Origin: Corynebacterium humireducens NBRC 106098 = DSM 45392 | Lineage (GTDB): Bacteria > Actinomycetota > Actinomycetes > Mycobacteriales > Mycobacteriaceae | Direction: 5' to 3' | Length of the DNA: 64,000 nucleotides | Assembly (NCBI RefSeq): GCF_000819445.1 | Contig: NZ_CP005286.1 | Location: forward strand, 744,001 to 808,000 | Shown: in pieces, positions 1,616-18,815 of the stretch | Layout: every line of letters starts with the position of its first letter | How positions within the stretch are numbered: position 1 is the first letter of the stretch | Position numbers and translations under genes: made by a program | Notes under the pieces: model-generated | What the model was told of the DNA's origin: nothing | The model's input: only the letters and a program-made list of their open reading frames with translations | The model's database searches: none

Positions 1616-1633
1616 AGTTAATCACCGTTAACT
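1616..1633 (+). promoter_or_regulatory. Palindromic operator AGTTAA-N6-TTAACT before accD1
   Basis: AGTTAATCACCGTTAACT is a perfect 6-6-6 inverted repeat immediately downstream of the predicted transcription start. Read on the opposite strand, the etfB promoter carries AGTTAATCAGCATTAACT, identical at 16 of 18 positions including most of the spacer. This is the expected size for a TetR-dimer site; assignment to the neighbouring regulator is inference. Confidence 0.7.
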
Positions 1634-1671
1634 GAAATCCTCACAGACCGCTTCGATCCCACGGAGAACCC

Positions 1672-3246
1672 ATGACCGCAACAGAGACCAACCGCGAAAG
1701 GCACGAGTCGCTCGTCGCCGATCTGCGCGGAGTGCTGGCCCGGACCGCCGAAGGAGGCAATGAGAAGGCACGCGAGCGCCACATCAGCCGCGGCAAGCTC
1801 CTCGCCCGTCAGCGCATCGTCGAACTGCTCGATCCGGGCAGCCCCTTCCTCGAGGTGGCCCCGCTGGCCGCCCACGACATGTACGGTGGCCAGGTCTCCG
1901 CCGCCGGCGTCGTCGCCGGCATCGGACTGGTCCACGGACGTCGCTGCATGGTCGTCGCCAACGACGCCACCGTCTCCGGCGGCACCTACTACCCGATGAC
2001 CGTCAAGAAGCACCTCCGCGCCCAGGAGATCGCCAACGACAACCGTCTCCCCTGCATCTACCTGGTCGACTCCGGTGGAGCCATGCTGCTCAACCAGGAC
2101 GAGGTCTTCCCGGACCGCGACCACTTCGGCCGTATCTTCTACAACCAGGCCAACATGTCCGCCAAGGGCATCCCGCAGATCGCCGCGGTCCTCGGCTCCT
2201 GCACCGCCGGTGGCGCCTACGTCCCGGCCATGAGTGACGAGGCCGTCATCGTCAAGGAGCAGGGCACCATCTTCCTGGCCGGCCCGCCGCTCGTGAAGGC
2301 CGCCACCGGTGAGGACGTCACCCCCGAGGACCTCGGCGGCGGTGACCTCCACTCCAAGGTCTCCGGCGTCACCGACCACCTGGCACTCGACGACGCGGAC
2401 GCCCTGCACCGGGTGCGTGCGATCGTCGACACCCTCCCGCTCGACCCGGCACCGGTCTGGGAGGTCCGCGACACCGTCGAGCCGCTGCGCCCGCAGACCG
2501 ACCTCTACGACATCGTCCCCGCCGACTCCAAGGTCCCCTACGACGTGCGCGAGGTCATCGAGGTGCTTGTCGACGGCAGCGAGTACACCGAGTTCAAGGA
2601 GGAGTTCGGCACCACGCTCATCACCGCCTTCGCCCGCATCCACGGCCACCCGGTCGGCATCATCGCCAACAACGGCGTCCTGTTCGCGGAGTCCGCCCAG
2701 AAGGGCGCGCACTTCATCGAGCTGTGCGACCAGCGCGGCATCCCGCTCCTCTTCCTCCAGAACACCACCGGCTTCATGGTCGGCCGTGAGTACGAGTCGG
2801 GCGGCATCGCCAAGCACGGCGCGAAGATGGTCAACGCCGTCGCCACCACCCGCGTCCCGAAGTTCACCGTCGTCATCGGCGGCGCCTTCGGAGCCGGCAA
2901 CTACTCCATGTGCGGCCGCGCCTACTCCCCGCGCTTCCTGTGGATGTGGCCCAACGCCCGCATCGCCGTCATGGGTGGCCCGCAGGCCGCGATGACCCTC
3001 TCCACCGTCCGCCGCAACCAGATCGAGCGCTCCGGCGGCGAGTGGTCCGCCGAGGAGCAGGAGCAGTTCGAGGCACCGATCCGCGAGAAGTTCGAGGAGG
3101 AGTCCCACCCGTACTACTCCTCGGCCCGCCTCTGGGACGACGGCGTCATCGACCCGGCCGACACCCGCCGCATGCTCGGCCTCGCCCTCGAGACCGCCTC
3201 CGGCGCACCCCTTGACGACACCGCCTTCGGCATCTTCCGCATGTAG
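1672..3246 (+). CDS. accD1: Acyl-CoA carboxylase carboxyltransferase subunit (AccD1-like)
   Basis: A protein of 524 aa, normal length for the carboxyltransferase beta subunit of biotin-dependent acyl-CoA carboxylases, with two crotonase-fold halves and the conserved acyl-CoA/biotin-site glycines (for example [17 protein letters not shown] and [15 protein letters not shown]). It transfers CO2 from carboxybiotin on the partner subunit, encoded 13 nt downstream, to an enoyl-CoA. The M. tuberculosis AccA1/AccD1 pair is a 3-methylcrotonyl-CoA carboxylase of leucine degradation. The shared gene order here (carboxylase, dehydrogenase, MaoC, CitE, ScoAB) supports the same substrate, but propionyl-CoA or another short acyl-CoA cannot be excluded from sequence alone. 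It is the first gene of the operon and lies just after the palindromic operator. Confidence 0.88.
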
Positions 3247-3259
3247 GAGAACGACAACA

Positions 3260-5299
3260 ATGACTACCCACAACATTCACACGGTGCTCGTCGCCAACCG
3301 CGGGGAGATCGCCTGCCGCATCATCCGCACCCTCAAGGACCAGGGCGTCCGCTCCGTCGCCGTCTACTCCGACGCCGACGCCGACGCCCCGCACGTCCGT
3401 GACGCCGACATCGCCGTCCACATCGGCGCCTCCCCGGCCCGTGAGTCCTACCTGGTGATCGACAAGATCATCGACGCGGCCCGCCGCACCGGCGCCAACG
3501 CCATCCACCCGGGCTACGGCTTCCTCGCCGAGAACTCCACCTTCGCCCAGGCCTGCGCCGACAACGACATCATCTTCATGGGCCCGCCGGCCTCCGCCAT
3601 CGAGACCATGGGTGACAAGATCTCCGCCCGCGCCGCCGTCGAGGCCCGCGACGTCCCGACCGTCCCCGGCATCTCCCGCCCGGGTCTGACCGACGAGGAG
3701 ATCATCGCCGCCGCCCCCGAGATCGGCTTCCCCGTCCTCATCAAGCCCTCCGCCGGAGGCGGAGGAAAGGGCATGCACCGCATCGAGGACCCGGCCGACC
3801 TCCCGGAGGCACTGGTCACCGCGCGTCGTGAAGCAGCCGGCGCCTTCGGCGACGACACCCTGTTCCTCGAGCACTTTGTGGACACCCCGCGTCACATCGA
3901 GGTCCAGATCCTCGCCGACGCCCACGGCAACGTCGTCCACCTCGGTGAGCGCGAGTGCTCCCTGCAGCGCCGCCACCAGAAGGTCATCGAGGAGGCCCCG
4001 AGCCCGCTTCTCGACGCCACCACCCGCGAGGCCATCGGCCAGGCGGCCTGCGACGCCGCCCGCTCCGTCGGCTACGTCGGCGCCGGCACCGTCGAGTTCA
4101 TCGTCCCCGCCGCCCGTCCCGACGACTTCTACTTCATGGAGATGAACACCCGTCTCCAGGTCGAGCACCCCGTCACCGAGATGGTCACCGGCCACGACCT
4201 CGTCGCCCTCCAGCTCGCGATCGCCCGCGGCGAGGAACTGCCGATCCGCCAGGAGGACATCACCCTCACCGGCCACTCCATCGAGGCCCGCATCTACGCC
4301 GAGGACCCGGCCAACGGCTTCCTGCCGACCGGTGGCCGCATCGCCAGCGTCGTCAAGCCGGAGGGCCCGGGCGTGCGCGTCGACTCCGGCATCACCGACG
4401 GCTCGGAGATCTCCTCCCTGTACGACCCGATGCTCATGAAGGTCATCGTCCACGGCGCCGACCGCGCCGAGGCCCTCAGCCGCCTCGACCGGGCACTGGC
4501 GAACACCGTCGTCGCCGGCGTCGGAGTCAACACCGACTTCTGCCGCTTCCTCATCAACGTCCCCCAGGTCGTCGCCGGTGACCTGCACACCGGACTGCTC
4601 GACGAGGTCGTCGACGACTACCGGGTCTCCGACGTCCCGGACGACGCCCTCGTCGCCTCCGCCATGGTGTGGCTCGCCCAGCGCTGGCCGGACCAGCCCG
4701 GCTCGGCCTGGGCGATCCCGGACGGCTGGCGCCCCGGCCTCCCCGCCGAGCAGCGCGTCCGCTTCGCCTGGGAGGGCGGCTCCAGCCTCATCTCTCTGCG
4801 CGGCACCCCGGCCGCCGCGGAGGTCACCGTCCACGACGCCGTCGCCGGACTCACCTCCGAGGACGAGGCGGCCCGGGCGGAGCCCCGCACCGTGTCGGCC
4901 ACCGTGCACCGCGACGGCGACTCCTGGCGCGTCACCGTCGACGGGCTCACCCGCCACTGGCAGATCGACGCCATCGGCAACGGCTCCACCCCCGAGACGG
5001 TCGTCTCCTCCGACGAGGGCACCTGGGTGCTGCGTCAGGAGCACGTCGCCCGCTCCCGGGCCGACGAGGACGCCGACGGCGACGGCACCCTGGCATCCCC
5101 GATGCCGGGCACCGTCATCGCCCTGTCCGCCGAGCCGGGCACCCGGGTCTCCGCCGGAGACGCGGTCCTCGTGGTCGAGGCCATGAAGATGGAGCACGTG
5201 CTCCGGGCCGCCCACGACGGAATCGTCGCCTACCACTGCTCGGCGGGCGACCAGGTCCCCGCCGGCAAGGCCCTGGCCAGCGTCGCCGCCGACGACTGA
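3260..5299 (+). CDS. accA1: Biotin carboxylase/biotin carrier subunit of acyl-CoA carboxylase (AccA1-like)
   Basis: A protein of 679 aa starting at ATG 3260, after GGAG at 3247-3250. The N-terminal biotin carboxylase begins VLVANRGEIACRI; the ATP-grasp glycine-rich loop SAGGGGKGMH and the EMNTRLQVEHPVTE segment follow. A linker leads to a C-terminal biotinyl domain with VVEAMKMEH; the biotinylated lysine is about residue 643. Together with AccD1 it forms an alpha/beta holoenzyme consuming ATP and bicarbonate. This is the long alpha-subunit form of 3-methylcrotonyl-CoA carboxylases, not the shorter housekeeping AccC. Biotin loading must come from a BirA encoded elsewhere. Confidence 0.9.
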   Translation: MTTHNIHTVLVANRGEIACRIIRTLKDQGVRSVAVYSDADADAPHVRDADIAVHIGASPARESYLVIDKIIDAARRTGANAIHPGYGFLAENSTFAQACADNDIIFMGPPASAIETMGDKISARAAVEARDVPTVPGISRPGLTDEEIIAAAPEIGFPVLIKPSAGGGGKGMHRIEDPADLPEALVTARREAAGAFGDDTLFLEHFVDTPRHIEVQILADAHGNVVHLGERECSLQRRHQKVIEEAPSPLLDATTREAIGQAACDAARSVGYVGAGTVEFIVPAARPDDFYFMEMNTRLQVEHPVTEMVTGHDLVALQLAIARGEELPIRQEDITLTGHSIEARIYAEDPANGFLPTGGRIASVVKPEGPGVRVDSGITDGSEISSLYDPMLMKVIVHGADRAEALSRLDRALANTVVAGVGVNTDFCRFLINVPQVVAGDLHTGLLDEVVDDYRVSDVPDDALVASAMVWLAQRWPDQPGSAWAIPDGWRPGLPAEQRVRFAWEGGSSLISLRGTPAAAEVTVHDAVAGLTSEDEAARAEPRTVSATVHRDGDSWRVTVDGLTRHWQIDAIGNGSTPETVVSSDEGTWVLRQEHVARSRADEDADGDGTLASPMPGTVIALSAEPGTRVSAGDAVLVVEAMKMEHVLRAAHDGIVAYHCSAGDQVPAGKALASVAADD

Positions 5300-5354
5300 C
5301 CCACCCACAACCTCTCACCCAGCACAGAAAAATCTCCCGAAAGGAACCAGCATC

Positions 5355-6512
5355 ATGACCGACATCAACATCACCGACCTGCCCGAGGAGTACCGCGAGC
5401 TGCAGAACGTGGTCCGCGAGTTCGCCAACGAGGTCGTCGACCCCGTCTCCGCACAGCACGACCGCGACCACACCTTCCCCTACGAGGTCGTCTCCGGCAT
5501 GGCCGAGATGGGCCTGTTCGGACTGCCCTTCCCGGAGGAGTACGGCGGCATGGGCGGTGACTACCTCTCCTTCGGCATCGCCCTCGAGGAGCTGGCCCGC
5601 GTCGACCAGTCCGTGGCCATCACCCTGGAGGCCGGCGTCGGTCTCGGTGCCATGCCGATCTTCCACTTCGGCAACGAGGAGCAGAAGCAGCAGTGGCTCC
5701 CGGACCTCACCGCCGGCACGAAGCTCGCCAGCTTCGGTCTGACCGAGCCGGGCGCCGGCTCCGACGCCGGTGCCACCCGCACCACCGCGCGTGAGGACGG
5801 CAGCGACTTCATCATCAACGGCTCCAAGCAGTTCATCACCAACTCCGGCACCGACATCACCTCCCTGTGCACCGTCACCGCCGTCACCGGCGAGAAGGAC
5901 GGCAAGAAGGAGATCTCCACGATCATCGTCCCGAACGACACCCCGGGCTTCACCGTGGAGCCGGCGTACGACAAGGTCGGCTGGAACGCCTCCGACACCC
6001 ACCCGCTGACCTTCACCGACGTCCGCGTCCCCCAGGAGAACCTGCTCGGTGAGCGCGGCCGCGGCTTCGCCAACTTCCTGTCCATCCTCGCCGAGGGCCG
6101 CGTCGCCATCGCCGCCCTGGCCACCGGTGCCGCCCAGGGCTGCGTCGACGAGTCCGTGAAGTACGCCAAGGAGCGCACCTCCATGGGCAAGCCGATCTCC
6201 GACTTCCAGGCCATCTCCTTCAAGATCGCCCGCATGGAGGCCCGCGTCCACGCCGCCCGCCTCGCCTGGATGGCCGCCGCCGCCAAGATGGTCAAGGGCC
6301 TGGACTTCCGCAAGGAGGCCTACATCGCCAAGCTCATCTCCTCCGAGGCCGCGATGGACAACGCCCGTGACGCCACCCAGATCCACGGTGGCTACGGCTT
6401 CATGAACGAGTACCGCGTCGCCCGCCACTACCGCGACTCCAAGATCCTCGAGATCGGTGAGGGCACCTCCGAGGTGCAGCTGATGCTGATCGCCCGCGAG
6501 CTGGGTCTGTAA
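5355..6512 (+). CDS. Acyl-CoA dehydrogenase (FadE19-like)
   Basis: A flavoprotein of 385 aa, the usual length for short/branched-chain acyl-CoA dehydrogenases. The FAD/substrate motif FGLTEPGAGSDAG and the C-terminal IHGGYGFMNEY...EIGEGTSEVQ segment are intact. It should form the 2,3-double bond of a short acyl-CoA and pass electrons to ETF; etfBA lie at 17-18.7 kb. In the M. tuberculosis cluster the counterpart is FadE19, proposed for isovaleryl-CoA. A caution: EIGEGTSEV keeps a glutamate where eukaryotic isovaleryl-CoA dehydrogenases have EIGAGTSEV, so the catalytic-base arrangement is of the butyryl/isobutyryl type. A strong Shine-Dalgarno (AAAGGAA) precedes ATG 5355. Confidence 0.9.
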   Translation: MTDINITDLPEEYRELQNVVREFANEVVDPVSAQHDRDHTFPYEVVSGMAEMGLFGLPFPEEYGGMGGDYLSFGIALEELARVDQSVAITLEAGVGLGAMPIFHFGNEEQKQQWLPDLTAGTKLASFGLTEPGAGSDAGATRTTAREDGSDFIINGSKQFITNSGTDITSLCTVTAVTGEKDGKKEISTIIVPNDTPGFTVEPAYDKVGWNASDTHPLTFTDVRVPQENLLGERGRGFANFLSILAEGRVAIAALATGAAQGCVDESVKYAKERTSMGKPISDFQAISFKIARMEARVHAARLAWMAAAAKMVKGLDFRKEAYIAKLISSEAAMDNARDATQIHGGYGFMNEYRVARHYRDSKILEIGEGTSEVQLMLIARELGL

Positions 6513-6526
6513 AGGAGAGAACTGAA

Positions 6527-7033
6527 ATGACCGACACCGCCGTGATCACCCGCTCCGTCGAGCAGCGGGGCCTGTGGTTCGAGGAGTACGAGGAGGGTGT
6601 GCGTTACCTCCACCGCCCGGGCCGCACCGTCACCGAGGCCGACGACGTCGTCTTCACCACCCTCACCATGAACACCCAGCCGCTGCACCTCGACGCCCAC
6701 TGGTCGTCCGGGCAGCCCGGGTTCGACGGCCAGCGACTGGTCAACTCCATGTGGACCCTGTCCACGGTGGTCGGCCTGTCCGTCTCCCAGCTCACCCTCG
6801 GCACCATCGTCGCCAACCTGGGCTTCACCGAGGTCGCCTTCCCGGCCCCGATGTTCCACGGCGACACCCTTTACGCCGAGACGATCTGCACCGGCAAGCG
6901 ACTCTCCAAGTCGCGTCCCGGTCAGGGGATCGTCGAGCTCGAGCACATCGGCCGTAACCAGCACGGCGACGTCGTCTGTCGCGCAGTCCGCTCCACCATG
7001 GTGCGCTGCCGCCCCGAAGAAGGAGAAGAGTAG
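6527..7033 (+). CDS. MaoC-family hot-dog enoyl-CoA hydratase
   Basis: A protein of 168 aa with the MaoC/(R)-hydratase signature (MNTQPLHLDAHW, carrying the catalytic Asp/His region) in a single hot-dog domain. The equivalent M. tuberculosis gene, Rv2499c, hydrates itaconyl-CoA-type substrates before cleavage by Rv2498c. Here it sits directly before the CitE-like lyase, with the stop codon adjacent to the next ATG, so stepwise hydration then C-C cleavage is the natural reading. It would hydrate 3-methylglutaconyl-CoA to HMG-CoA, or itaconyl-CoA to citramalyl-CoA; the sequence cannot choose. The start has AAAGGAG at good spacing. Confidence 0.85.
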   Translation: MTDTAVITRSVEQRGLWFEEYEEGVRYLHRPGRTVTEADDVVFTTLTMNTQPLHLDAHWSSGQPGFDGQRLVNSMWTLSTVVGLSVSQLTLGTIVANLGFTEVAFPAPMFHGDTLYAETICTGKRLSKSRPGQGIVELEHIGRNQHGDVVCRAVRSTMVRCRPEEGEE

Positions 7034-7858
7034 ATGAGCACCTGGATCCCCGCCGGCCCGGCACTGCTGTTCGCCCCGGCCGACCGCCCCGAGTTCTTCG
7101 CCAAGGCCGCCGACCGCGCCGACCTGGTCATCATCGACCTGGAGGACGGCTGCCGCCCCGCCAACCGCGAGAGCGCCCGTGAGGGCATCCGCCTGGCCAC
7201 GCTCGACCCCTCCCGCGTCATCATCCGCGTGAACCCGGCCGGCACCTCCGACCACGTCGCGGACCTCGCAGCCGTGGCCGGCAGCCCCTTCCGCCAGGTC
7301 ATGCTCTCCAAGACCGAGGGCGCGGCGGACGTCGAGTCCGTCACCCGGGTGCTTCCCGACGCCGCCGTCATCGCTCTCGTGGAGACCCCGCTCGGAGTCC
7401 TCCGGGCGGAGGAGATCGCCGCCGCCGAAGGTGTCGTCGCCCTCTTCTGGGGCGCGGAGGACCTCGTCGCCGGCCTCGGCGGCACCACCTCCCGCTTCGC
7501 CGACACCACCTACCGTGACGTGCCCCGCTTCGCCCGGGCGCAGGTGCAGCTCGCCGCCGCCGCCCACGGCAAGGCCTCCCTCGACTCCGTCCACGTGGAC
7601 ATCGGGGACATCGACGGCCTCCGTGCGGAGGCCGAGGACGCCGCCGCCCTCGGCTACGTCGGCACCTGCTGCATCCACCCCTCCCAGGTGTCCGTCATCC
7701 GTGAGTCCTACCGGCCCAGTGACGAGGACCTCGACTTCGCCCGGCAGCTCCTCGCCGCCGCCGAGCACAACGACGGAGCCTTCAGCTTCAACGGCCGCAT
7801 GGTCGACGCCCCCCTTTTCCGCCAGGCCCAGGCCATCGTCCAGCGCGCCCAGTCCTGA
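7034..7858 (+). CDS. HpcH/HpaI-family CitE-like beta-hydroxyacyl-CoA lyase (Rv2498c-like)
   Basis: A TIM-barrel enzyme of 274 aa; the M. tuberculosis counterpart Rv2498c has about the same length. Visible family motifs are IIDLEDGCRP (metal-binding acid near residue 35), IIRVNPAGT, ALVETPLGV and FWGAEDLVAGLGG. Rv2498c is a bifunctional lyase used in leucine catabolism (HMG-CoA to acetyl-CoA plus acetoacetate) and itaconate dissimilation (citramalyl-CoA cleavage). The neighbours (carboxylase, hydratase, CoA-transferase and thiolase) fit both. It is not a subunit of citrate lyase, since CitD/CitF partners are absent. It abuts the hydratase gene, so translational coupling is likely. Confidence 0.88.
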   Translation: MSTWIPAGPALLFAPADRPEFFAKAADRADLVIIDLEDGCRPANRESAREGIRLATLDPSRVIIRVNPAGTSDHVADLAAVAGSPFRQVMLSKTEGAADVESVTRVLPDAAVIALVETPLGVLRAEEIAAAEGVVALFWGAEDLVAGLGGTTSRFADTTYRDVPRFARAQVQLAAAAHGKASLDSVHVDIGDIDGLRAEAEDAAALGYVGTCCIHPSQVSVIRESYRPSDEDLDFARQLLAAAEHNDGAFSFNGRMVDAPLFRQAQAIVQRAQS

Positions 7859-7879: not shown

Positions 7880-9583
7880 ATGATCACCAACACCCTCACC
7901 ACCCGCTCCACCCCGTACGGCTCCATCGTCGTCGACGAGAACGGCAACAAGCTCTCCCACGTCATCGGCTGCACCATCGACCAGGGCGCCGCCCCGCTCC
8001 GCGAGGAGACCCTGGGTCAGATGCTCCGCTCGATCGTCGAGAAGTACCCCTCCCGTGAGGCGGTCGTCGACGTCTACGCCGACAAGACCTACACCTACGA
8101 GCAGTTCTACAACACGGTTCTCCGCCTGGCGTCCGCCTTCATCCGCCACGGCTACCGCAAGGGCGACCGCATCGGCATCTGGTCCACCAACCGCTGGGAG
8201 TGGCTCGTCGTCCAGTGGGCCTGCCACCACCTGGGCCTCATCCTGGTGAACATCAACCCGGCCTACCGTCAGAGCGAGCTCAACTACGTCCTGGCCAAGG
8301 TCGGCGTGAAGATGGTCTTCGCCGCCCCGCGCTTCAAGGACTCCGACTACCGCACCATGCTCAACGAGGCCCGCAAGCAGCGCGGCGTCCAGCTGAAGAA
8401 CATCATCTACTTCGGTTCCACCGACTGGTACGACGCCATCCACGGTGAGATCGACGACCTCTCCGAGTACACCCGCGACCTGGACAACAACGATCCCGTC
8501 AACATCCAGTTCACCTCCGGCACCACCGGTTTCCCCAAGGGCGCGACCCTGACGCACCGCAACATCCTCAACAACGGCTTCTTCGTCGGTGAGAACCTCG
8601 GCTACACCGAGCAGGACCGCGTGTGCACCCCGGTGCCCTTCTTCCACACCTTCGGCATGGTCATGGGCGTCATCGCCACCTTCACCCACGGTGCCTGCAT
8701 GATCATCCCGGGCCCGACCTTCAAGTCCCGTGAGACCCTCAAGGCGGTCCACTCCGCGAAGGCGACCTCGCTGTACGGCGTGCCCACCATGTTCATCACC
8801 GAGCTGGAGGAGGCCCACGACCACATCGAGTACGGCAGCCCCTACGACCTGTCGACCCTGCGCACCGGCATCATGGCCGGCACCTCCTGCCCGTCGAAGA
8901 CGATGCGCGACGTCATGACCCAGTTCAACATGGAGGGCATCTCCATCTGCTACGGCATGACCGAGACCTCCCCGGTCTCCTTCCAGACGCGTGCCGACGC
9001 CCCCCTGGACAAGCGCGTCAACACCGTCGGCCAGATCATGCCGCACCTCGAGTGCAAGATCGTCGACGAGGACACCGGCGAGACCCTCCCCATCGGCGAG
9101 AAGGGCGAGATCCTCGTCCGCGGCTACTCCGTGATGAAGGGCTACTGGGACCACGAGGAGAAGACCGGCGAGGCCCTCACCCCGGACGGCTGGATGCAGA
9201 CCGGCGACCTCGGCGAGATCGACGAGGAGGGCTACCTCTCCGTCACCGGCCGCCTCAAGGACATGCTCATCCGCGGCGGCGAGAACGTCTACCCGCGTGA
9301 GATCGAGGAGTTCCTCTTCACTCACCCGGACATTGTCGACGCCCAGGTCATCGGCGTCCCCGACGAGCGTTACGGTGAGGAGATCATGGCGTGGATCATC
9401 CTGCACGACGGCGTGGACGACCTCACCGCCGAGCAGATCGCCGAGTTCGCACACGGCAAGCTGGCCCGTCACAAGGTCCCGCGCTACGTCGCCGTCGTCG
9501 ACGAGTACCCGATGACCGTCTCCGGCAAGGTGCGCAAGGTCGCGCTGCGCGAGATGGCTCCGAAGGTTCTGGGGTGGCTCTGA
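7880..9583 (+). CDS. Acyl-CoA synthetase, AMP-binding (FadD35-like)
   Basis: A protein of 567 aa of the ANL superfamily. The P-loop FTSGTTGFPKGATLTHRN, the YGMTET adenine-site motif, the hinge GRLKDMLIRGGENVYPREIE and the C-terminal catalytic lysine context SGKVRK are all present, so the enzyme should be active. It makes an acyl-CoA from a carboxylic acid, ATP and CoA. Gene order parallels FadD35 in the M. tuberculosis cluster. Candidate substrates are short or branched acids entering the pathway. The stop codon overlaps the scoA ATG by one base (TGATG), indicating translational coupling with the CoA-transferase. Confidence 0.88.
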   Translation: MITNTLTTRSTPYGSIVVDENGNKLSHVIGCTIDQGAAPLREETLGQMLRSIVEKYPSREAVVDVYADKTYTYEQFYNTVLRLASAFIRHGYRKGDRIGIWSTNRWEWLVVQWACHHLGLILVNINPAYRQSELNYVLAKVGVKMVFAAPRFKDSDYRTMLNEARKQRGVQLKNIIYFGSTDWYDAIHGEIDDLSEYTRDLDNNDPVNIQFTSGTTGFPKGATLTHRNILNNGFFVGENLGYTEQDRVCTPVPFFHTFGMVMGVIATFTHGACMIIPGPTFKSRETLKAVHSAKATSLYGVPTMFITELEEAHDHIEYGSPYDLSTLRTGIMAGTSCPSKTMRDVMTQFNMEGISICYGMTETSPVSFQTRADAPLDKRVNTVGQIMPHLECKIVDEDTGETLPIGEKGEILVRGYSVMKGYWDHEEKTGEALTPDGWMQTGDLGEIDEEGYLSVTGRLKDMLIRGGENVYPREIEEFLFTHPDIVDAQVIGVPDERYGEEIMAWIILHDGVDDLTAEQIAEFAHGKLARHKVPRYVAVVDEYPMTVSGKVRKVALREMAPKVLGWL

Positions 9584-10308
9584 TGGGAATCGACAAGCGC
9601 AGGAACGACGTCCGCGAGCTCATCGCGGAGCACGTCAAGGACGGCATGACCCTTGCCGTCGGTGGGTTCGGACTCTGCGGTGTCCCGTACGTCCTCATCG
9701 AGGCACTGCGTGACGTGGGCCGCAAGAACCTCACCATCGTCAGCAACAACATGGGCGTCGACGGCCAGGGCCTCGGCATCCTGCTCGAGAACAACCAGGT
9801 CAGCAAGGTGTGCGCCAGCTACGTCGGTGAGAACCGCGAGTTCGCCCGCCAGTACCTCGCCGGCGAGCTCGAGGTCGAGTTCAACCCGCAGGGCACCCTC
9901 GCCGAGCGGCTCCGTGCCGGCGGCGCCGGAATCCCCGCCTTCTACACCGCCACCGGTGTGGGCACCCTCGTCGCCGAGGGCAAGCCGACGAAGAACTTCG
10001 ACGGCCGCACCTACGTCATGGAGCGCGGCATCGTCGCCGACGTCGGCCTGGTCCACGCCTGGCAGGGCGACATCAGCGGCAACCTCGTGTACCGCGCCAC
10101 CGCCCGCAACTTCAACCCGCTGTGCGCCGAGTCCGGCCTGGTCACCATCGCCCAGTGCGAGGAGATCCTGCCCCTGGGCGGCATCGACCCGGCACACGTG
10201 ACCACCCCCGGTGTCCACGTCGACCACATCGTCCCGGCGGACGACCGCGAGAAGCCGATCGAGCAGCGGACCACCCGCCCGCGCGCGACCGTCGGAAAGG
10301 AGATCTGA
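9583..10308 (+). CDS. scoA: 3-oxoacid CoA-transferase subunit A
   Basis: A protein of 241 aa starting at ATG 9583 inside the stop of the ligase gene. The N-terminal [16 protein letters not shown] glycine-rich motif and the [11 protein letters not shown] segment are typical of subunit A of succinyl-CoA:acetoacetate CoA-transferase. With ScoB it activates acetoacetate, the product of HMG-CoA cleavage, at the expense of succinyl-CoA. In itaconate metabolism the same enzyme type loads CoA onto itaconate. It is followed 1 nt later by scoB. Confidence 0.88.
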
Positions 10309-10309
10309 C

Positions 10310-10981
10310 ATGTCCACCACCACCGTGACCACCAAGGGCTGGACCCGCGACCAGATGGCCGCCGAGGCCGCCAAGGAACTCAACGACGGTGACTACGTCA
10401 ACCTCGGCATCGGCATCCCGACGCTGGTGGCCAACAACCTCCCGGAGGGCGTCAACGTCGTCCTCCAGTCGGAGAACGGCATCCTCGGCATGGGCCCCTT
10501 CCCCTACGAGGGGGAGGAGGACGCCGACCTCATCAACGCCGGCAAGCAGACCGTCACCCTCATCCCCGGCGCCGCGATCTTCGACTCCGCCACCAGCTTC
10601 GGCATGATCCGTGGCGGCAAGGTGAAGATGGCCGTCCTCGGCGCCATGGAGGTCTCCCAGTCCGGCGACCTGGCCAACTGGATGATCCCCGGCAAAATGG
10701 TCAAGGGCATGGGCGGCGCGATGGACCTCGTCGCCGGCACCCCGCGCGTCCTGGTGCTCACCGAGCACGTCACCCGCGACGGCCAGCCCAAGCTGAAGAA
10801 GAAGTGCGACCTGCCGCTCACCGGTATCGGCGTCGTCGACCGGATCATCACCGACATGGGGAGCTTCGACGTCGCCGAAGACCACCTCATCCTGCGGAAG
10901 ATCGCCCCCGGCGTGACCCTCCGTGACATTGAAGAGAACACCGACGCGAACTACGTCGTCGAGCTGGAAGAAATGGAGTAA
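10310..10981 (+). CDS. scoB: 3-oxoacid CoA-transferase subunit B
   Basis: A protein of 223 aa; ATG 10310 follows GGAAAGGAG. The family's catalytic glutamate context, [11 protein letters not shown], is present, as are the [11 protein letters not shown] start and the [17 protein letters not shown] core. It pairs with ScoA to form the CoA-transferase, and its product acetoacetyl-CoA is the substrate of the thiolase encoded 8 nt downstream. Separate A and B subunits are usual in bacteria; the eukaryotic enzyme is a fusion. Confidence 0.88.
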
Positions 10982-10989: not shown

Positions 10990-12192
10990 ATGAGCAACCT
11001 CACCCCCCACGCCGATGACGTCGTCATCCTCGCCGGAGCCCGCACCCCCCAGGGCAAGCTCCTCGGTTCCCTCGCCTCCCTCAGCGCCGTGGACCTCGGC
11101 GCCCACGCCGTCCGCCACGCCGTCGAACGCGCCGGCATCCAGCCCTCCGACGTCGACCACGTGATCCTCGGCCAGGTTCTCCAGGCCGGTGCCGGACAGA
11201 ACCCGGCCCGCCAGACCGCACTCAAGGCAGGCCTCGACCCGCGGGTCGTCGCCGAGACCGTCAACAAGGTCTGCCTCTCCGGCCTCGACGCCGTCATCCA
11301 CGCCGCCCGCCTCATCCGCCTCGGTGACGCCGACGTCGTCGTCGCCGGTGGTCAGGAGTCCATGACCAACGCCGCCCACGTCGTCCGCGGCGCCCGCCAG
11401 GGCAAGGGCTACGGCGCCATGGAGCTCGCCGACACCGCCGAGGTAGACGGCCTCACCGACGCCGCCGAGGGCATCTCCATGGGCGTGCTCACCGAGGGCC
11501 CGCTGTCCTCCCTGAACATCTCCCGCGAGGAGCAGGACGAGATCGCCGCCGCCTCCCACCAGCGTGCGGCCGCCGCCCAGTCCGCCGGCGTCTTCGACTC
11601 CGAGATCGCCCCCATCTCCATCCCGCAGCGTAAGGGCGACCCGGTGGTCGTCTCCGCCGACGAGGGCATCCGCGCCAACACCACCACCGAGTCCCTCTCC
11701 GGCCTGCGCCCCGCCTTCACCCGTGACGGCTCCATCACCGCGGGCAACGCGTCCCCGATCTCCGACGGAGCCGCAGCCGTCGTCCTCACCCGCCGTTCCT
11801 GGGCGGAGGAGCGCGGCCTCGACTACCTGGCGGTCGTCGGCGTCGCCGGCCAGACCGGTGGCCCGGACAACTCCCTGCACTCCCAGCCCTCCGACTCCCT
11901 CAAGGCCGCGCTCGACCGCGCCGGCTGGGAGGCCGGTGACCTGGACTTCGTCGAGATCAACGAGGCTTTCGGTGCCGTCGCCGTCCAGTCCCTGCGCGAC
12001 CTCGACTACCCGGCCGAGCAGTGCAACATCTACGGCGGTGCCATCGCCCTCGGACACCCGATCGGTGCCTCCGGTGCCCGCCTGGTCCTCACCGCGGCGC
12101 GGGAGCTCGACCGTCGTGGTGCCGGCAAGGCAGGCGTGAGCCTGTGCGGTGGCGGTGGCCAGGGCGACGCCCTGCTGCTGTACCGGAACTAG
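10990..12192 (+). CDS. Acetyl-CoA C-acetyltransferase (thiolase)
   Basis: A protein of 400 aa, the usual thiolase length. The acyl-accepting cysteine is in NKVCLSGLDAV (about residue 93), the histidine in ALGHPIGASGA, and the second cysteine in LCGGGGQGDALLL, so the active site is complete. It cleaves acetoacetyl-CoA to two acetyl-CoA, completing a route from leucine or itaconate-type intermediates to central metabolism. The M. tuberculosis Rv2498c-Rv2506 set as I recall it lacks an adjacent thiolase, so this is an addition in this lineage. Confidence 0.9.
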   Translation: MSNLTPHADDVVILAGARTPQGKLLGSLASLSAVDLGAHAVRHAVERAGIQPSDVDHVILGQVLQAGAGQNPARQTALKAGLDPRVVAETVNKVCLSGLDAVIHAARLIRLGDADVVVAGGQESMTNAAHVVRGARQGKGYGAMELADTAEVDGLTDAAEGISMGVLTEGPLSSLNISREEQDEIAAASHQRAAAAQSAGVFDSEIAPISIPQRKGDPVVVSADEGIRANTTTESLSGLRPAFTRDGSITAGNASPISDGAAAVVLTRRSWAEERGLDYLAVVGVAGQTGGPDNSLHSQPSDSLKAALDRAGWEAGDLDFVEINEAFGAVAVQSLRDLDYPAEQCNIYGGAIALGHPIGASGARLVLTAARELDRRGAGKAGVSLCGGGGQGDALLLYRN

Positions 12193-12203: not shown

Positions 12204-12974
12204 ATGAGCAGCCACCTCTTCACCCGCACCGGTGACATCACCTTCCAGCCCACCCGCCACGCGGAGGGAGCCTGGTCGACGGAGGACTACCACTTCAGTT
12301 CCCTCGCCGGCCTGATGATCCACGAGATCGAGCGCACCCGTCCCCACAAGGACCTCGTCCTCAGCCGCATCTCCTACGACATCCTCGGTCGCCTCCCGTT
12401 CGCGGAGGTCGAGGTGATCGTCGAGACGCTGCGCCCCGGACGCACCATCGAGCTCGTCCAGGCCACCGCCACCATCGGAGGCCGCAGCGTGATCAAGGCC
12501 CGCGCCTGGTACCTCGCCACCTCGGACACCACCGAGGTCGAGGCGGTCAGTGCCGAGCCGCTCACCTCCCCGGAGGACTCCGCCGAGCGTGATCTCACCG
12601 AACTGTGGGCCGGCGGCTTCATCCGCCAGCTGGAGGTCCGGCAGGCGATGGAGCGTCGACCGGGTCGCGGAGCCACCTGGATCCGCACCCCGAACGTGCT
12701 GGTCGAGGGCGAGGAGCCCATCGAGGTCGCCCAGTACTTCACCAGCATCGACGTCGCCAACGGCATCAACCCGCAGCAGGGACCCGAGGAGTGGGCGTAC
12801 CCGAACGTCGACCTCACCGTCCATCTCTTCCGCCAGCCGACCGGCCCGTGGACCGGTCTGGACACCACCGTCACGTGGGGTGCCGAGGGCATCGGCCTGA
12901 CCAGCTCCGTCCTCCACGACATCCACGGCCCCGTCGGCCGTGCCGAGCAGAGCCTCACGCTCCGCAAGCTCTGA
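12204..12974 (+). CDS. Double hot-dog acyl-CoA thioesterase (TesB-like)
   Basis: A protein of 256 aa from ATG 12204 (GGGGAG about 4 nt upstream). Its two halves resemble acyl-CoA thioesterase hot-dog domains: an N-terminal half with GLMIHEIERTRPHKDLVLSRISYDILGR (nt 12312-12395) and a C-terminal half with DLTVHLFRQPTGPWTGLDTT. It probably releases CoA from stalled or excess acyl-CoAs. It is the last gene of the operon and ends before a strong terminator. Substrate and physiological need are unknown. Confidence 0.75.
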   Translation: MSSHLFTRTGDITFQPTRHAEGAWSTEDYHFSSLAGLMIHEIERTRPHKDLVLSRISYDILGRLPFAEVEVIVETLRPGRTIELVQATATIGGRSVIKARAWYLATSDTTEVEAVSAEPLTSPEDSAERDLTELWAGGFIRQLEVRQAMERRPGRGATWIRTPNVLVEGEEPIEVAQYFTSIDVANGINPQQGPEEWAYPNVDLTVHLFRQPTGPWTGLDTTVTWGAEGIGLTSSVLHDIHGPVGRAEQSLTLRKL

Positions 12975-13290: not shown

Positions 13291-14295
13291 AGGGTGTTAC
13301 GAAAGTCGTTTCAGCCAGTAGCGGATATTCGCCAACTGCACCGTGGCCTCGAAATGCACCGCTAACTTGTCGAAACGCGTGGCACACCCACGATGCTGCT
13401 TGATCCGGTTGATACCCCGCTCCACGGCATTACGCCGCTGGTAAGCCACGGCATCGAAGGCAGGGGGTCGGCCACCGGCCGACCCCCTGCGCCGACGGTT
13501 GGCGACCTGGTCCTTCGGCTGGGAGATCGTCGCCTTGATCCCCCGCGCCCGCAACCACGCCCGGTTCGCCCGTGAGGAATACGCCTTGTCCGCCAACACC
13601 CGCTCGGGTCGTTTCCGCGGCCGACCACGCGTGGCGGACGGCACCCGGATTTTCTCCAGTACCCGCACCATCTGTGGACCATCACCGGCTTGACCTGGGG
13701 TGATCGCAAAGGACAGCACCCCGCAGTCAGCGTCAATGGCCACATGGATCTTGGTCGACCACCCGCCCCGCGAGCGGCCGAACCCATGATGATCCGGCTC
13801 CCCCGGGTGGCGGAGGGGGCTGTCTTTCCGTGCACCCGCGGCGTGGATATGTCCACGGGTGGTTGTGGAATCCACGCTGACCTCCCAGGAGAGTTTTCCT
13901 TTCTCCTGGGCGTGGGTGAGCAGCCGGGTGTGCACGTTCTCCCATACTCCGTTGGCCCGCAGCCGGGCGAACAGATCGTGGACCCGCCACCAGGGGCCGT
14001 AGCGCTCATGGACATCGCGCCACGGGCAGCCGGTGCGGATGCGAAAGAAGATGCCGTTGACCAGGGACCGTAGGTCCCAGGTGCGGGGGCGTCCCCGCCG
14101 TGACGGGGCCGGTAGCAGTGGGACAAGCAGGTCCCATTCAGCGTCGGTGAGGTCATGGCGTGCTGAGGGCGGTACAGTAGGCAACGAGGGTTTCCTTGCG
14201 AGCGTTGATGATTCGACACCAACAGCGTGCGCGGGGAGACCCTCGTTGCTGTTTATGACACGCCGGTCTCACTCACCGGATTTTCGTAACACGCT
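13291..14295. mobile_element. IS5-family insertion sequence, complete copy
   Basis: The element is about 1005 bp. Its ends AGGGTGTTACGAAA and (inverted) AGCGTGTTACGAAA match at 13 of 14 bases, and CTAG flanks both sides (13287-13290 and 14296-14299), consistent with target duplication at a CTAG site. The boundary could be shifted to give GAG-ends and a TA duplication. One transposase gene fills the element. It interrupted the palindromic repeat array: the left flank (GCTGTCGACGCCTAG) resembles the intact segment at 14850-14862. A near-identical copy, two base differences over 980 bp, begins at 59795. Confidence 0.9.
13297..14184 (-). CDS. IS5-family transposase
   Basis: A DDE transposase of 295 aa. 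The N-terminal part has DLTDAEWDLLVPLLP and RTGCPWRDVHERYG typical of IS5-family enzymes. Candidate acidic residues are in SVDSTTTRGH, VLADKAYSSR and the C-terminal NAVERGINRIKQHRG. A TTG at 14184 is the only start codon after the upstream in-frame stop. The stop codon lies inside the terminal inverted repeat. The protein is identical to that of the copy at 59801-60688, suggesting a recent duplication and an active enzyme. Confidence 0.9.
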   Translation of the reverse strand: MPTVPPSARHDLTDAEWDLLVPLLPAPSRRGRPRTWDLRSLVNGIFFRIRTGCPWRDVHERYGPWWRVHDLFARLRANGVWENVHTRLLTHAQEKGKLSWEVSVDSTTTRGHIHAAGARKDSPLRHPGEPDHHGFGRSRGGWSTKIHVAIDADCGVLSFAITPGQAGDGPQMVRVLEKIRVPSATRGRPRKRPERVLADKAYSSRANRAWLRARGIKATISQPKDQVANRRRRGSAGGRPPAFDAVAYQRRNAVERGINRIKQHRGCATRFDKLAVHFEATVQLANIRYWLKRLS

Positions 14296-15301
14296 CTAGT
14301 GGAGTGCGCAGTTGCGCACTAAATACCGGTGTTGACCAGCGGGTTCCCTGGGAAAGGTTCACGGGTTTCGGGGCCTGAGGGCGAGGCGGGGGAGTCCGCA
14401 GCTGCGGACTGCAGAGGAGTAGCCCGCCGTTCGTGGAGTGCGCAGCTGTGCACTGTGGGGAGTGCTGGGGTGTGTTGCGGTGCGCCCTCCGAGGGAGCGT
14501 TGTCGATGCCTGAAGGAGTGCGCAGCTGCGCACTGAATACCGGTGTTGACCAGCAGATACGTTATTGAACTCTGGAGGGCGTTGCTGCTGAGTGCCCGCA
14601 GCGACGGACTGTGACGGTTGCGCAGTGCGCTGACAGATAGTGCGCAGCTGCGCACTGAACACCTGTGTTAGCCAGTGCTTTCGTGGTTGAGCGCAACGGG
14701 GATCTGGGCCCGGAGGCCAGCGTGGGAGGCGTTGGTCAGTTGCACGGAAAGGTGCGCAACTGCGCACTCTGTTCAGTGCTGAAAACTCTGTCGCTTGCCG
14801 GCAGAGGGCGTGCCGGCAGTGTCCGCAGTGGCGGACCGGGGGGGGGAACGCTGTCGACGCCTGGCGGAGTGCGCTGTTGCGCACTAAATGCCGGTGTTGA
14901 CCAGCGGATTCGTATATGAACTCTGGAGGGCGCTGCCGCCTGCCGGTCGAGGACATGAATGACAGGAGGTGTAGCAGCGGCGGAGGGCGTCGAAAAGCAT
15001 GGTCGGGGAGTCCGCAGCGGCGGACGGCGCCACGTGTGCTCGGGGGAATGCAGAAGATCACGGTGCACTGACGATGGGAGTGTCGTCTGCAACGGTGCTC
15101 GCCGACGCCCCCCTCCGGAGAACTCGACAGGTACACGTCCACGTTCGAGGACAGCACGCCGAGACGCAGCGATCAGTTCCAATCCACCTTGCGGGGAAAG
15201 GGCGGGTCCTTGGGGACTGTCCCGGCCCCAGCCAGAGCGGGTGGAATGAGGATGACTCGTGTACGGGGTGCCGGTTCGCGCCGCTGCCGGCCCCGGACAT
15301 G

Positions 15302-15338
15302 AGAAAACGCACCCCGCGCGACGTGGGGTGCGTTTTCT
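15302..15338 (-). terminator. Terminator of the etf-cytochrome operon
   Basis: A 14-bp perfect stem (AGAAAACGCACCCC with its complement) and 9-nt loop lie 24 nt beyond the stop codon of the cytochrome gene. In the minus direction the stem ends in a T-rich arm (TTTTCT). The A-rich and T-rich arms make it usable from both sides. Confidence 0.85.
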
Positions 15339-15361
15339 GCAGCACAGAAAGTTGTGGTGGG

Positions 15362-16990
15362 TTATCTCGTGGTGACCTCCCCGAAAAGTCCGGCGACAGG
15401 GGAAATCAGGAGGGGGCGGGCGGCGAACCACGCGCCGGCGGTCACTGCGATGGCGACCAGGAGGACGATCAGTCCGGTCCAGTCCCCGGCGTACACGTCG
15501 GGATCAACGGAGCCGCGGGCGGCGAACATGTGGTTCAGGTTCCGCAGTGCGCCGGTGAGGAACACCAGGAGCACGTGCATGAAGATGAAGACCACGAAGT
15601 ACAGCATCACCGGGAAGTGGACGGCGCGGGCGATCTCAGCCGGGTAGAGGGCGTTGAGCTTCTGGTTGTTCTTGGGCCAGATGGAGCTCATGCGCAGACC
15701 GGTGATGATCGCGAGCGGCGCCGCGATGAACACGGTGACGAAGTACGCCAGTTCCTGCAGTCCGTTGTAGTGGACCCAGCCGTTCTCGGTCGGCCAGTCG
15801 AAGGAGAGGTACTGGATGCCGGCGGAGAGGGCGTTCGGGAAGACCTCCCAGCTGGTGGGGACGATGCGCATCCACTGGCCCGTCGCGAAGAGGAGCACGA
15901 AGAAGACGGCACCGTTGATGACCCAGAGCAGGTCGAGGGCCTGGTGGAACCAGATGGTGAGGCTGATCTTGCCGCCCCTGCCGCTGCGTGCGGTGAAGTA
16001 GGCGGGTGGGCGCCGCTCGCCGCGGATCTGCAGGCCGGAGCGGATGATCAGGACCATGAGGAACACGTTGAGGAAGTGCGACCAGGCCAGCCACGCCGGC
16101 ACGCCGACCGGAGCGGACTCCGGCATCGGTGCCGCACCCGGGTAGCGCTCGACGAACGCCGAACCGGTGTCGCTGCCGAGGAACCAGCGTGCGATGAACA
16201 TCACGATCACGCCGAGCGGCACGAGCGCGCCCGCGCCGAGCAGCCACTGGACCAGGGTGAAACGTCCGTAACGCTTCGCCTCCGGCTTGGGTGCCGCATG
16301 GGACTTCGGCTTCTCGACGCCCGCCGTCTTCTGCGGCGCCACCGGCGCCACCGGCGCTGCGGCACCCGGTGCGGCGGGTGCCGCCGCCGGGGCTGCAGCT
16401 GCGGCGACCGGCTCCACGACCGGCTCCGGCTGCTTCTCGACGGCGCGGGTCGTCGTCACCGCTGCCGTCGCGACCTCCGGCCACGGGGCGCCACCGGCCA
16501 CACGCGGCAGGCCGCGGCGCAGGGTGACCTCCTCGGTGACGGTCTCGACGGCCGGGGCGGCTGCGGCAGCGGGGGTCGCCGGTGCGGCAGGTGCCGCAGC
16601 AGCCGGGGCGGCGACGGCAGCCGGTGCCTCCTCCGCCACGGCGGCGACGGGCGTGACCGGGGCAGCCGGGGCCGAGACGGTGGCCGGGGGCCAGGGTTCC
16701 CCGCCCGGGACGCGGGGGAGGCCGCGGCGCAGTTCCTGGCTGACGGCGACCTGCGCGGGGGCGGGGGCTGCCACCTCCGGGGCGGCGGCGGCGACCGGTG
16801 CCTCGGGGGCGGCCGGGGCAGCCGGGGCGGCAGCGGGCTCAGGAGCAGCGGCGGCCGCGGCGACGACGGGTGCGGCGGGCGGGACGTGGGTGGTCTCCGT
16901 CTCTGTGACGGGCGGCCACGGGGCGCCGTTGGGGATGCGGGGCAGCCCCTGGCGGATGCGGGTGGTGACGGTCGTGGACACGGCGATCAC
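15362..16990 (-). CDS. Membrane b-type cytochrome with GLPR..G.PWP repeats, in the etf operon
   Basis: A protein of 542 aa. Residues 1-240 are an Ala/Pro-rich, probably disordered region holding three copies of a (R)xGLPRxxxGxPWP motif (near 14-26, 89-101 and 159-171). Residues 245-525 carry about six membrane helices (245-267, 301-319, 345-369, 411-431, 456-480, 505-523). Histidines suited to haem ligation are at 305, 349, 458 and 472, resembling the cytochrome b561/Ni-hydrogenase cytochrome b superfamily. Its GTG start overlaps the etfA stop (GTGA), so it is co-translated with ETF. I infer a role in passing electrons from ETF to menaquinone; no activity is established. The repeats could be docking sites. 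Confidence 0.75.
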
Positions 16991-17967
16991 GCCTTCCGGG
17001 CGTTGATCTCGTCGACGAGCTTGGGGACGATCTCGAAGACGTCACCGACGATGCCGAAGTCGGCGATGTCGAAGATGGGGGCGTCGGCGTCCTTGTTGAC
17101 GGCGACGATCGTCTTGGAGGTCTGCATGCCGGCGAGGTGCTGGATCGCGCCGGAGATGCCCAGTGCGATGTAGAGGTCCGGGGTGACGGAGACACCGGTC
17201 TGGCCGACCTGGGCGGTGTGCTCGACGTAGCCGGCGTCGACGGCGGCGCGGGAGGCACCGACGGCGGCACCGAGGCTGTCGGCGAGGTCGTTGACCAGCG
17301 CGAAGCCCTCCGGGGAGCCGAAGCCGCGGCCGCCGGAGACGACGGTCTTGGCGCCGAGGAGCGACGGGCGCTCGGTGTTGATGACGGCGGGCTCGCTGCT
17401 CACGACCGACGCGGAGCGACGCTCGGAGGGGGTGAACTCGAGGGGGCTGAGGGTGCCGGCGGCGGCGTCGGCACGCGTGTCGACGGCACCGAGCCGGACG
17501 GTGATCGCCGGGGCGCCGAAGGTGGCGGCGGAGACCAGCTGGTAGTTGCCGCCGTAGACGGAGTGGTGGCCGATGATGCCCTCGTCGTCGCGGGAGACGT
17601 TGACGACGTCGGTGATGAGCGCGCGGCGGGAGCGGACGGCGAAGCGGGCGGCGATGTCGCGGCCCTCGACGGAGTGAGCGAACAGGACGGCCTGCGGGTG
17701 GCAGGTCTCGTCGGCGCTGATGACGGCGTCGACGGAGGGGCCGCCGAGCTGGTCGGCGGGCACCTCGGCGGCGAGGACCTGGGCGGCGCCGAGCTCACCG
17801 AGGCGGGTGGCTGCGGCGGCGGTGTCGGCGCCGGAGGTGTGGAGGAACAGGGCGACCGGGGTGCCCAGGGTGGCGGCTGCGCCGAGGAGCTCCGCGGCGT
17901 AGGCGGGGATGCCGCCGTCCATCGTGGCGGACACGACGGCGAGGATGGAATCGTCTGCGAACTGCAT
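16987..17967 (-). CDS. etfA: Electron transfer flavoprotein alpha subunit
   Basis: A protein of 326 aa, the family's usual length. The C-terminal FAD-binding domain is clear: [53 protein letters not shown] and [22 protein letters not shown]. It accepts electrons from acyl-CoA dehydrogenases through the EtfAB heterodimer. It follows etfB by 8 nt and overlaps the cytochrome gene by 4 nt. Confidence 0.95.
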
Positions 17968-17975
17968 GGTGGCTC

Positions 17976-18749
17976 CTAGATCAGCTTGTTCTGTGCGAGG
18001 TAGTCGGCGAGCTGGGCGGCGGCCGAGCCGTCGTCGGTCACCTTGATGCCGGCCTCACGGGGCGGGCACTCGGCGACCTGGGTCATGATGGAACGGGGGA
18101 CGGAGAAGTCCTCCGCGTTGACGCCGAGATCGGCGAGGGTGAGCTGGGTCATCGGCTTCTTCTTGGCGGCCATGATGCCCTTGAAGTTGGGGAAGCGGGC
18201 GTCGGGGAAGGACTCCGTGATGGAGACGACCGCCGGGAGCTCCGCGGTGAGGTTGAGCACGCCGTCGTCGGAGGCGCGGGCGCCGGAGACGGTGCTGTCG
18301 GTGGCCTCGAGGGTGGTGAGCTGGGTGAGGTGGGGGCGGTCGAGCCACTCGGCGATCATGGCGGGCAGGACGCCGCCGTTGCCGTCGGTGGAGAGGTTGC
18401 CGGCGACGACGAGGTCGTAGTTCTCACGCTCGATGGCCTTCGCGAGGACCTCGGCGGTGAGGGAGAGGTCGGCGCCGAGGAGGGCCGGGTCGTTGATGTG
18501 GACGGCGGCCTCGGCACCCATGGCCAGGCCCTTGCGGATGCTGGCGACGGCGGACTCCGGGGCCATGGACATCACGTCCACGGTGTGGTCGCCGGTGCCG
18601 GCGAGTGCCAGGGCGGCCTCGACGGCGCGCTCGCAGATCTCGTCGAGCACCGGGTCGCTGGCGGCGCGGTCCGCGAGGCCGGTCTCCAGGGAGATCTTCC
18701 GCTCCCCGAAGGTGTCGGGGACCTCTTTCACTAGTACGACGATGCGCAT
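17976..18749 (-). CDS. etfB: Electron transfer flavoprotein beta subunit
   Basis: A protein of 257 aa beginning MRIVVLVKEVPDTFGERK; AGGAG lies 6-7 nt before the ATG, so the longer upstream frame is not used. Beta-subunit features include the ASDPVLDEICERAVEAAL helix and LVVAGNLSTDGNGGVLPAMIAEWL. It is the first gene of the etf-cytochrome operon. Its promoter carries the same palindrome as the acyl-CoA operon, which fits ETF being made when acyl-CoA dehydrogenase is made. Confidence 0.95.
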   Translation of the reverse strand: MRIVVLVKEVPDTFGERKISLETGLADRAASDPVLDEICERAVEAALALAGTGDHTVDVMSMAPESAVASIRKGLAMGAEAAVHINDPALLGADLSLTAEVLAKAIERENYDLVVAGNLSTDGNGGVLPAMIAEWLDRPHLTQLTTLEATDSTVSGARASDDGVLNLTAELPAVVSITESFPDARFPNFKGIMAAKKKPMTQLTLADLGVNAEDFSVPRSIMTQVAECPPREAGIKVTDDGSAAAQLADYLAQNKLI

Positions 18750-18797
18750 GGTGTGCTCCTGTTCATTCTGTGCTTGGGGGCCCTTCCGGACCATCTC

Positions 18798-18815
18798 AGT
18801 TAATGCTGATTAACT
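18798..18815 (-). promoter_or_regulatory. Palindromic operator before etfB, matching the accD1 operator
   Basis: On the minus strand the sequence AGTTAATCAGCATTAACT is a perfect 6-6-6 inverted repeat and differs from the accD1 operator at two spacer bases only. It begins directly after a probable -10 box (TATTTT, 18821-18816 reading leftwards), so a bound repressor would cover the transcription start. Confidence 0.7.

Follow-up and report, generated by a model that had tools for sequence, protein, structure and literature searches.

In proteobacteria, LiuR and PsrA control the degradation of branched-chain compounds and fatty acids, and a catabolic repressor also governs genes for the electron transfer flavoprotein (ETF); these are other regulators, with other operators, than those described below. 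The closest described system is that of the TetR repressor BkaR (Rv2506/MSMEG_4718), which represses mycobacterial leucine catabolism through the palindrome GTTA-N-T-N4-A-N-TAAC, an operator tied to BkaR by electrophoretic mobility shift assay (EMSA) and reporter data (PMC3920632). The repressed core comprises accD1, accA1, fadE19, a hydratase gene and citE, and mycobacteria also have a distant target (MSMEG_4920, fadA4) and, in Mycobacterium tuberculosis, a site before scoA (Balhana et al. 2013, PMC3920632). ETF is absent from the main text of that account, where the terms "etf" and "electron transfer" each occur 0 times (PMC3920632). The window described here is a stretch of 64,000 nucleotides (C1:744001-808000) of the single-contig, 2.68-Mb genome of Corynebacterium humireducens. 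It carries a TetR gene, tetR1, beside accD1-accA1-fadE19-hydratase-citE with the same operator, and a second copy of the operator before a separate operon, etfBA2-cytb, which encodes a second ETF and a cytochrome b561-type membrane protein. Comparison across genomes indicates that the two operators are very probably those of the adjacent BkaR-type TetR1, which would co-repress the leucine/isovalerate operon and etfBA2-cytb.

The operator pair

Operator 1 (AGTTAATCACCGTTAACT; 1616..1633, plus strand) is predicted before accD1, 38 bp from the ATG of that gene at 1672. Operator 2 (AGTTAATCAGCATTAACT; 18798..18815, read on the minus strand from 18815 to 18798) is predicted before etfB2, 48 bp from the start of the gene, which was taken to be the ATG at 18749 (MRIVVLVKEVPDT) in preference to the first ATG of the open reading frame (ORF) at 18794. 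Both sequences are present as the original prediction described them: each is a perfect 6-6-6 inverted repeat, the two are identical at 16 of 18 positions, and they are the only mismatch-free copies of AGTTAA-N6-TTAACT in the window and in the whole genome. The expected number of exact copies is 0.000005 per 64 kb and 0.0002 per genome under a first-order Markov model of the window, an expectation that is somewhat too low because intergenic DNA is AT-richer than the model. With up to three mismatches allowed, the window contains 3 matches against 0.76 expected, and 2 of 100 shuffles reached three or more. The whole genome has, besides the two exact copies, one with one mismatch (2564609, before sodA) and five with two; a reversed control pattern gave 3 matches at up to two mismatches, where the motif itself gives 8, and 0 at up to one, where the motif gives 3. 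The motif had been expected to occur rarely and only before acyl-CoA or ETF genes. This holds for two of the three sites with at most one mismatch and fails for the third, which precedes sodA.

The probable repressor TetR1

The gene tetR1 (867..1460, plus strand; the GTG at 867 is assumed as the start, and the ORF opens at 774) encodes a TetR-family protein (PF00440, E 6.7e-14) that also carries TetR_C_24, and it is followed by a terminator-like hairpin (1488..1516, plus strand). The BkaR query was the TetR encoded beside the published M. smegmatis sites, which were found letter for letter in two Mycobacterium-genus genomes. Its best match in the window genome is TetR1, with 42% identity over 168 residues and an E value of 1.5e-39, against 2.1e-12 for the next TetR of the genome. 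In the reverse direction, the TetR1 match lies beside accD1 (six loci), scoAB (one) or fadD (one) in the eight Mycobacterium-genus loci that were opened, all of which carry a site scoring at least 11 of the 14 informative bases. Operator 2 agrees with the published BkaR core at 10 of 10 fixed positions and operator 1 at 9 of 10, the deviation of the latter being identical to that of the EMSA-positive MSMEG_4920 site. In the window, tetR1 precedes accD1-accA1-fadE-maoC-citE, and a similar order is found in most tetR1 stretches. Mycobacterial bkaR is transcribed divergently, carries two sites and regulates itself, and its regulon includes bkdABC (PMC3920632). By contrast, tetR1 is codirectional and has no site of its own, and the regulon of the window would add etfBA2-cytb.

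Conservation across genomes

Relatives of TetR1 (E ≤ 1e-30) are found in 48 of 242 Corynebacterium genomes. The accD1 gene lies within the fetched stretch in 43 of these (G030, G198, G104, G135 and G182 were excluded), and a site with at least 12 of 14 informative bases is present within 330 bp before accD1 in all of them (43/43; 31 reach at least 13 and 10 the full 14).

The second ETF is encoded on the minus strand by etfB2 (beta subunit; 17976..18749, PF01012) and etfA2 (16987..17967, PF00766 and PF01012). These are the domains expected of the two ETF subunits. A further etfB is present in the genome at 1114540 and is 45% identical to etfB2; EtfBA2 is a second ETF besides the common (housekeeping) one. 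A survey of 80 genomes (48 with TetR1, 32 without) found etfB2 next to both bkaR and the leucine operon in nine of them: G000, G183, G235, G140, G077, G127, G120, G044 and G157, the cluster of G183 being divided between two contigs. All nine linked etfB2 genes have a site of 13-14/14 at 23-56 bp upstream. The controls were 27 etfB2-type genes located elsewhere; 23 belong to genomes that lack a tetR1 relative and four to genomes that have one (G030, G198, G019 and the second etf of G132). None of the 27 is preceded by a site reaching 11/14; for one of them (L343), only about 120 bp of upstream sequence was available. Before housekeeping etfB, sites of at least 13/14 were found in 0 of 21 cases and sites of 11-12/14 in 4 of 21; dinucleotide-shuffled upstream regions reach 11/14 in 0.2-0.5%. 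In G132, etfB2 has no operator of its own because etfB2-etfA2-cytb sits inside the leucine operon, directly after scoB. Whether through a separate operator or through a position within the operon, as in G132, the second ETF would be switched together with the leucine genes.

Co-repression of an acyl-CoA dehydrogenase and its electron acceptor, as originally predicted, is thus well supported by cross-genome comparison and can be refined to the leucine/isovalerate operon and a second, dedicated ETF. The choice of the TetR protein encoded at 867-1460 as the repressor is likewise upheld, since TetR1 belongs to the BkaR type, the operator agrees with that published for BkaR, and the pairing of the operator with accD1 and linked etfB is conserved in nine related genomes.

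The weak sites of 11-12/14, which might place the housekeeping ETF under this control as well, lie 211-214 bp before its etfB in four genomes that have TetR1 but no second ETF linked to it (L306 1905, L307 1830, L308 1917 and L311 1989). Three of them share their flank and correspond to about one event, and the site of L311 lies within an upstream ORF. In G030 and G198 (L079, L080), a tetR1 relative still stands beside etfBA2-cytb; accD1, accA1, fadE and the etfB2 operator are absent from the fetched 16 kb.

Points against and other candidate regulators

Several observations weigh against TetR1 acting as a BkaR-type repressor of both operons. No own-promoter site of tetR1 was found in the window (best 9/14), although mycobacterial bkaR is autoregulated. 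TetR1 scores 180.7 bits with its nearest NCBIfam equivalog, SACE_7040 (NF050111), against a cut-off of 250. The original prediction placed operator 1 just after the transcription start of accD1 and operator 2 directly after the -10 element of etfB; a simple sigma-70 scan gives a promoter at neither position. The site before sodA falls outside the expected functions. The reverse comparison covers eight other Mycobacterium-genus loci, outside the two genomes in which the M. smegmatis sites were found. The operator motif is not universal at the tetR1 loci of the wider order, where 15 of 29 opened loci have a site of at least 11/14 and 14 have none. The nine linked genomes are related and amount to fewer than nine independent observations.

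Control of both operons by an unlinked regulator with a BkaR-like operator would accommodate the site before sodA and the further TetR genes of the genome. It is improbable, considering that the site accompanies accD1 in 43 of 43 tetR1-bearing stretches and matches the operator backed by EMSA and reporter data for BkaR, and that the next TetR of the genome is a far weaker BkaR match.

Still less probable is nitrogen control through the product of amtR (19314..19985, minus strand), a TetR gene found ahead of etfB2 in the window as well as in G183, G157, G030 and G198, binding operator 2 and perhaps operator 1. The protein is identified as the nitrogen regulator AmtR by its sequence (AmtR-type structures at E 5e-97), and the known operator of AmtR differs from the 18-bp site. 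Operator 2 is retained in G140, G077, G127, G120 and G044, where the fetched stretch has no amtR (for G120, this covers 960 bp upstream only), and also in G235, which has amtR at the opposite end of the cluster. In G030 and G198, amtR adjoins etfB2, yet the operator is missing, as are accD1, accA1 and fadE (see above). A terminator-like hairpin (18861..18893, minus strand) lies between the amtR and RDD genes and the etf operon. AmtR was rejected as the regulator at operator 2 on its identity and on the distribution across genomes, in which the site does not follow amtR; the RDD gene was rejected as a member of the etf operon, the hairpin intervening.

That the etfB2 palindrome arose by chance and only the accD1 site functions is scarcely credible: a single genome would be insufficient to decide, and of 61 genomes in the genus 30 have at least one match with no more than one mismatch, mostly before other genes, but chance is rejected by the rarity of the motif in the window genome and by its conservation before linked etfB2 (9/9, against 0/27 and 0/21 in the controls).

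The probable leucine/isovalerate operon and the proposed switch

The genes downstream of operator 1 are as follows, all on the plus strand. The first, accD1 (1672..3246), encodes an acyl-CoA (methylcrotonyl-CoA) carboxylase beta subunit, its role assigned through the mycobacterial homologue (PMC4347857), and accA1 (3260..5299) the biotin carboxylase/carrier subunit. They are followed by genes for a fadE19-like acyl-CoA (isovaleryl-CoA) dehydrogenase (5355..6512), the substrate of which is suggested by its operon position, a MaoC-type hydratase (6527..7033), a CitE-like lyase (7034..7858) and an acyl-CoA ligase (fadD, 7880..9583). Subunits A and B of a 3-oxoacid CoA-transferase, both above the curated cut-off, are encoded by scoA (9583..10308) and scoB (10310..10981). 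An acetyl-CoA acetyltransferase (thiolase; 10990..12192) and an acyl-CoA thioesterase with 4HBT_3 domains (12204..12974) complete the series. In M. smegmatis, AccD1-AccA1 is a methylcrotonyl-CoA carboxylase and is required for growth on isovalerate (PMC4347857); the pathway of the window is therefore most likely that of leucine/isovalerate breakdown. An IS5-family transposase gene (13297-14184, minus strand) separates the leucine operon from the etf operon.

Genome comparison establishes the identity of the operators, the kinship of the repressor, the conserved linkage and the restriction of the site to linked etf. From these, we infer that a TetR1 dimer on each operator would block the leucine/isovalerate operon and the separate etfBA2-cytb operon. 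We hypothesize that a metabolite of the pathway, probably a branched acyl-CoA, releases TetR1, so that the acyl-CoA dehydrogenase and a private route to the quinone pool would appear together. The electrons would pass, by hypothesis, from FadE19 to EtfBA2, then to a diheme cytochrome b and on to menaquinone. With such a switch, the BkaR regulon would reach beyond carbon chemistry and take in an electron-transfer branch of its own; it also suggests that a common ETF pool is not obligatory for acyl-CoA dehydrogenases.

The cytochrome and its relation to EtfD

The third gene of the etf operon (15362..16990, minus strand) encodes a cytochrome b561-type membrane protein, the proposed ETF:menaquinone oxidoreductase. 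It scores 38.4 bits with PF01292 (gathering threshold 30.1), and its four His residues H305, H349, H458 and H472, two of them 14 residues apart, are invariant in 42 of 42 relatives. Four His residues with two spaced by 14 are typical of diheme quinone-reducing b subunits. The PF01292 family (cytochrome b561/Ni-hydrogenase b subunit) includes subunits of the FdnI/HyaC type, whose partners are hydrogenase or formate dehydrogenase, and its proteins serve many dehydrogenases; the score above gathering and the four invariant His residues place the window protein near them, whereas its gene is encoded with ETF and its product carries a GLPR repeat region.

EtfD is the known actinobacterial ETF:menaquinone oxidoreductase (PMC13083937). 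The likeness to the cytochrome lies in a membrane b-heme protein proposed to accept ETF electrons, with a long disordered repeat tail (PMC13083937). The cytochrome differs in having only PF01292, with neither the CCG nor the 4Fe-4S domains of the EtfD type, in having four conserved His residues against the two His ligands of the single heme of EtfD, and in having repeats that are N-terminal and of another motif. The window genome encodes a separate EtfD at 2471022-2473298. This EtfD (L292 1523-4702, genome 2471022 onward) has a long C-terminal tail of near-identical VPPAPGTAVPPAPAVPAAPS-type repeats.

The two proteins nearly exclude each other across the 242 Corynebacterium genomes, an observation that is new here. 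EtfD only was found in 136, the cytochrome only in 92, both in nine and neither in five (Fisher p ~3e-49, kinship ignored). Cytochrome matches were counted at a threshold of E 1e-80, set after the gap between 2.2e-85 and 7.1e-31 had been seen. Twelve genomes with weak matches only, including the EtfD-bearing G010, were scored as without the cytochrome, and four counted matches contain stops (G231, G068, G194 and G034). Among the genomes with neither, the contig of G002 breaks off after etfA, and the completeness of G182 is 87%. In an AccD1 tree built from 43 genomes with TetR1, seven rows have the cytochrome only, a state that requires five changes, at least three of them on well-supported branches; the exchange between EtfD and the cytochrome therefore happened repeatedly. 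The near-exclusion leads to the view that the cytochrome is probably a substitute for EtfD. Eight of the nine genomes with both have the bkaR-linked form, and the ninth, G217, has a stand-alone cytochrome. In genomes that retain EtfD, the cytochrome thus appears to survive chiefly as an accessory under leucine control. G157, which has the controlled etf module and in which no EtfD was found, speaks against so simple a role. The EtfD-bearing G010 has a short frame (G010:C1:2253066-2253374) that shares 50% identity with the C-terminus of the cytochrome; it may be what is left of a cytochrome gene since lost.

N-terminal repeats of the cytochrome

The first 240 residues of the cytochrome are rich in Ala and Pro and contain three copies of GLPRxxxGxPWP. 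Repeats were viewed in the window and in loci L069-L084, L293-L298 and L342-L373. The scoring covered 52 cytochrome loci, of which four were left unscored (L296, L345, L364 and L370) and show the same pattern. The GLPR motif is present at 35 of 35 scored loci beside etfA and at 0 of 13 standing apart; in G157 it lies in a different frame from the cytochrome core. Most stand-alone cytochromes have Pro/Ala-rich repeats, broadly like the tail of the window genome's EtfD. Absence of the motif was predicted for 11 genomes with only a housekeeping-type etfB. Ten fit, and in the eleventh, G023, no GLPR is visible, but a contig end cuts the locus. In mycobacterial EtfD the tail is disordered, with conserved interspersed repeats, and an AlphaFold3 model places it on ETF (2026 study, PMC13083937). 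By analogy, the repeats of the cytochrome may dock ETF. A GLPR cytochrome and an etfB (65% identical) also occur on the short contig L133, recorded under a Leucobacter metagenome-assembled genome, by either transfer or misbinning.

Taken together, we lean, by a modest margin over even chances, towards a diheme cytochrome b with a disordered N-terminal arm that acts as an alternative ETF:menaquinone oxidoreductase and has replaced EtfD in about two-fifths of Corynebacterium species. The docking repeats of its arm would match the type of ETF (GLPRxxGGxPWP in the etf-linked form; Pro/Ala-rich and broadly like the EtfD tail in the stand-alone form), and species with both proteins would keep two insulated ETF circuits, the second under BkaR. 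It is doubtful, though a good deal less so than the other candidate regulators considered above, that the protein is an unrelated b-type cytochrome that shares the etf operon and is not an ETF oxidase. In favour of that possibility, PF01292 proteins serve many dehydrogenases, a profile search for a relative in the Protein Data Bank gave none, and the AlphaFold model, made for two sequences, had a mean pLDDT of 38 and was not used. It loses to the near-exclusion of EtfD across 242 genomes, the repeated exchange on the AccD1 tree, the four invariant His residues and the association of GLPR with etfA (35/35 against 0/13).

The comparative data point to a class of ETF-quinone link that substitutes for EtfD, a protein studied in mycobacteria as a drug target, and yield a concrete, testable code of docking motifs that would pair ETF with its membrane partner. 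Among the open-licence papers listed in searches, none describes, as judged from its title and the opening of its abstract, a b561 cytochrome tied to ETF or a stand-in for EtfD in Corynebacterium or its relatives, or BkaR or this pathway in Corynebacterium.

Other operator-like sites

Ten genomes together gave 25 sites that differ from AGTTAAT-N4-ATTAACT at no more than one position, and accD1 and etfB2 account for 19 of them. The remaining six lie upstream of the citE-like/tetR1 unit in G044 and G127, of sodA in G183, of an aldehyde dehydrogenase gene in G044 and of a CoA-transferase gene in G235, and at 1036843 in G044. Sites of 12-14/14 precede the citE-like/tetR1 unit in G044, G127 and, more weakly, G120; there is none in the window. 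The site with one mismatch to AGTTAA-N6-TTAACT at 2564609 lies between sodA and a divergent MFS transporter gene (L003 1501; L282 1501) and is followed by TGTAAAGTTTGCAA, which we take to resemble a RamB site. Between the window genome and its sister G183, the half-sites and flanks of the sodA site are identical and the centre differs, the window copy being the weaker. In G044 (L013 1501 / L076 2036), the aldehyde dehydrogenase gene is preceded by a letter-identical copy of operator 1, after which comes TGTAAACTTTGCAA, similar to TGTAAAGTTTGCAA. In G235, a BkaR-like site (G235:240067; L283 1501) precedes a CoA-transferase gene, beside another TetR gene and an acyl-CoA dehydrogenase gene.

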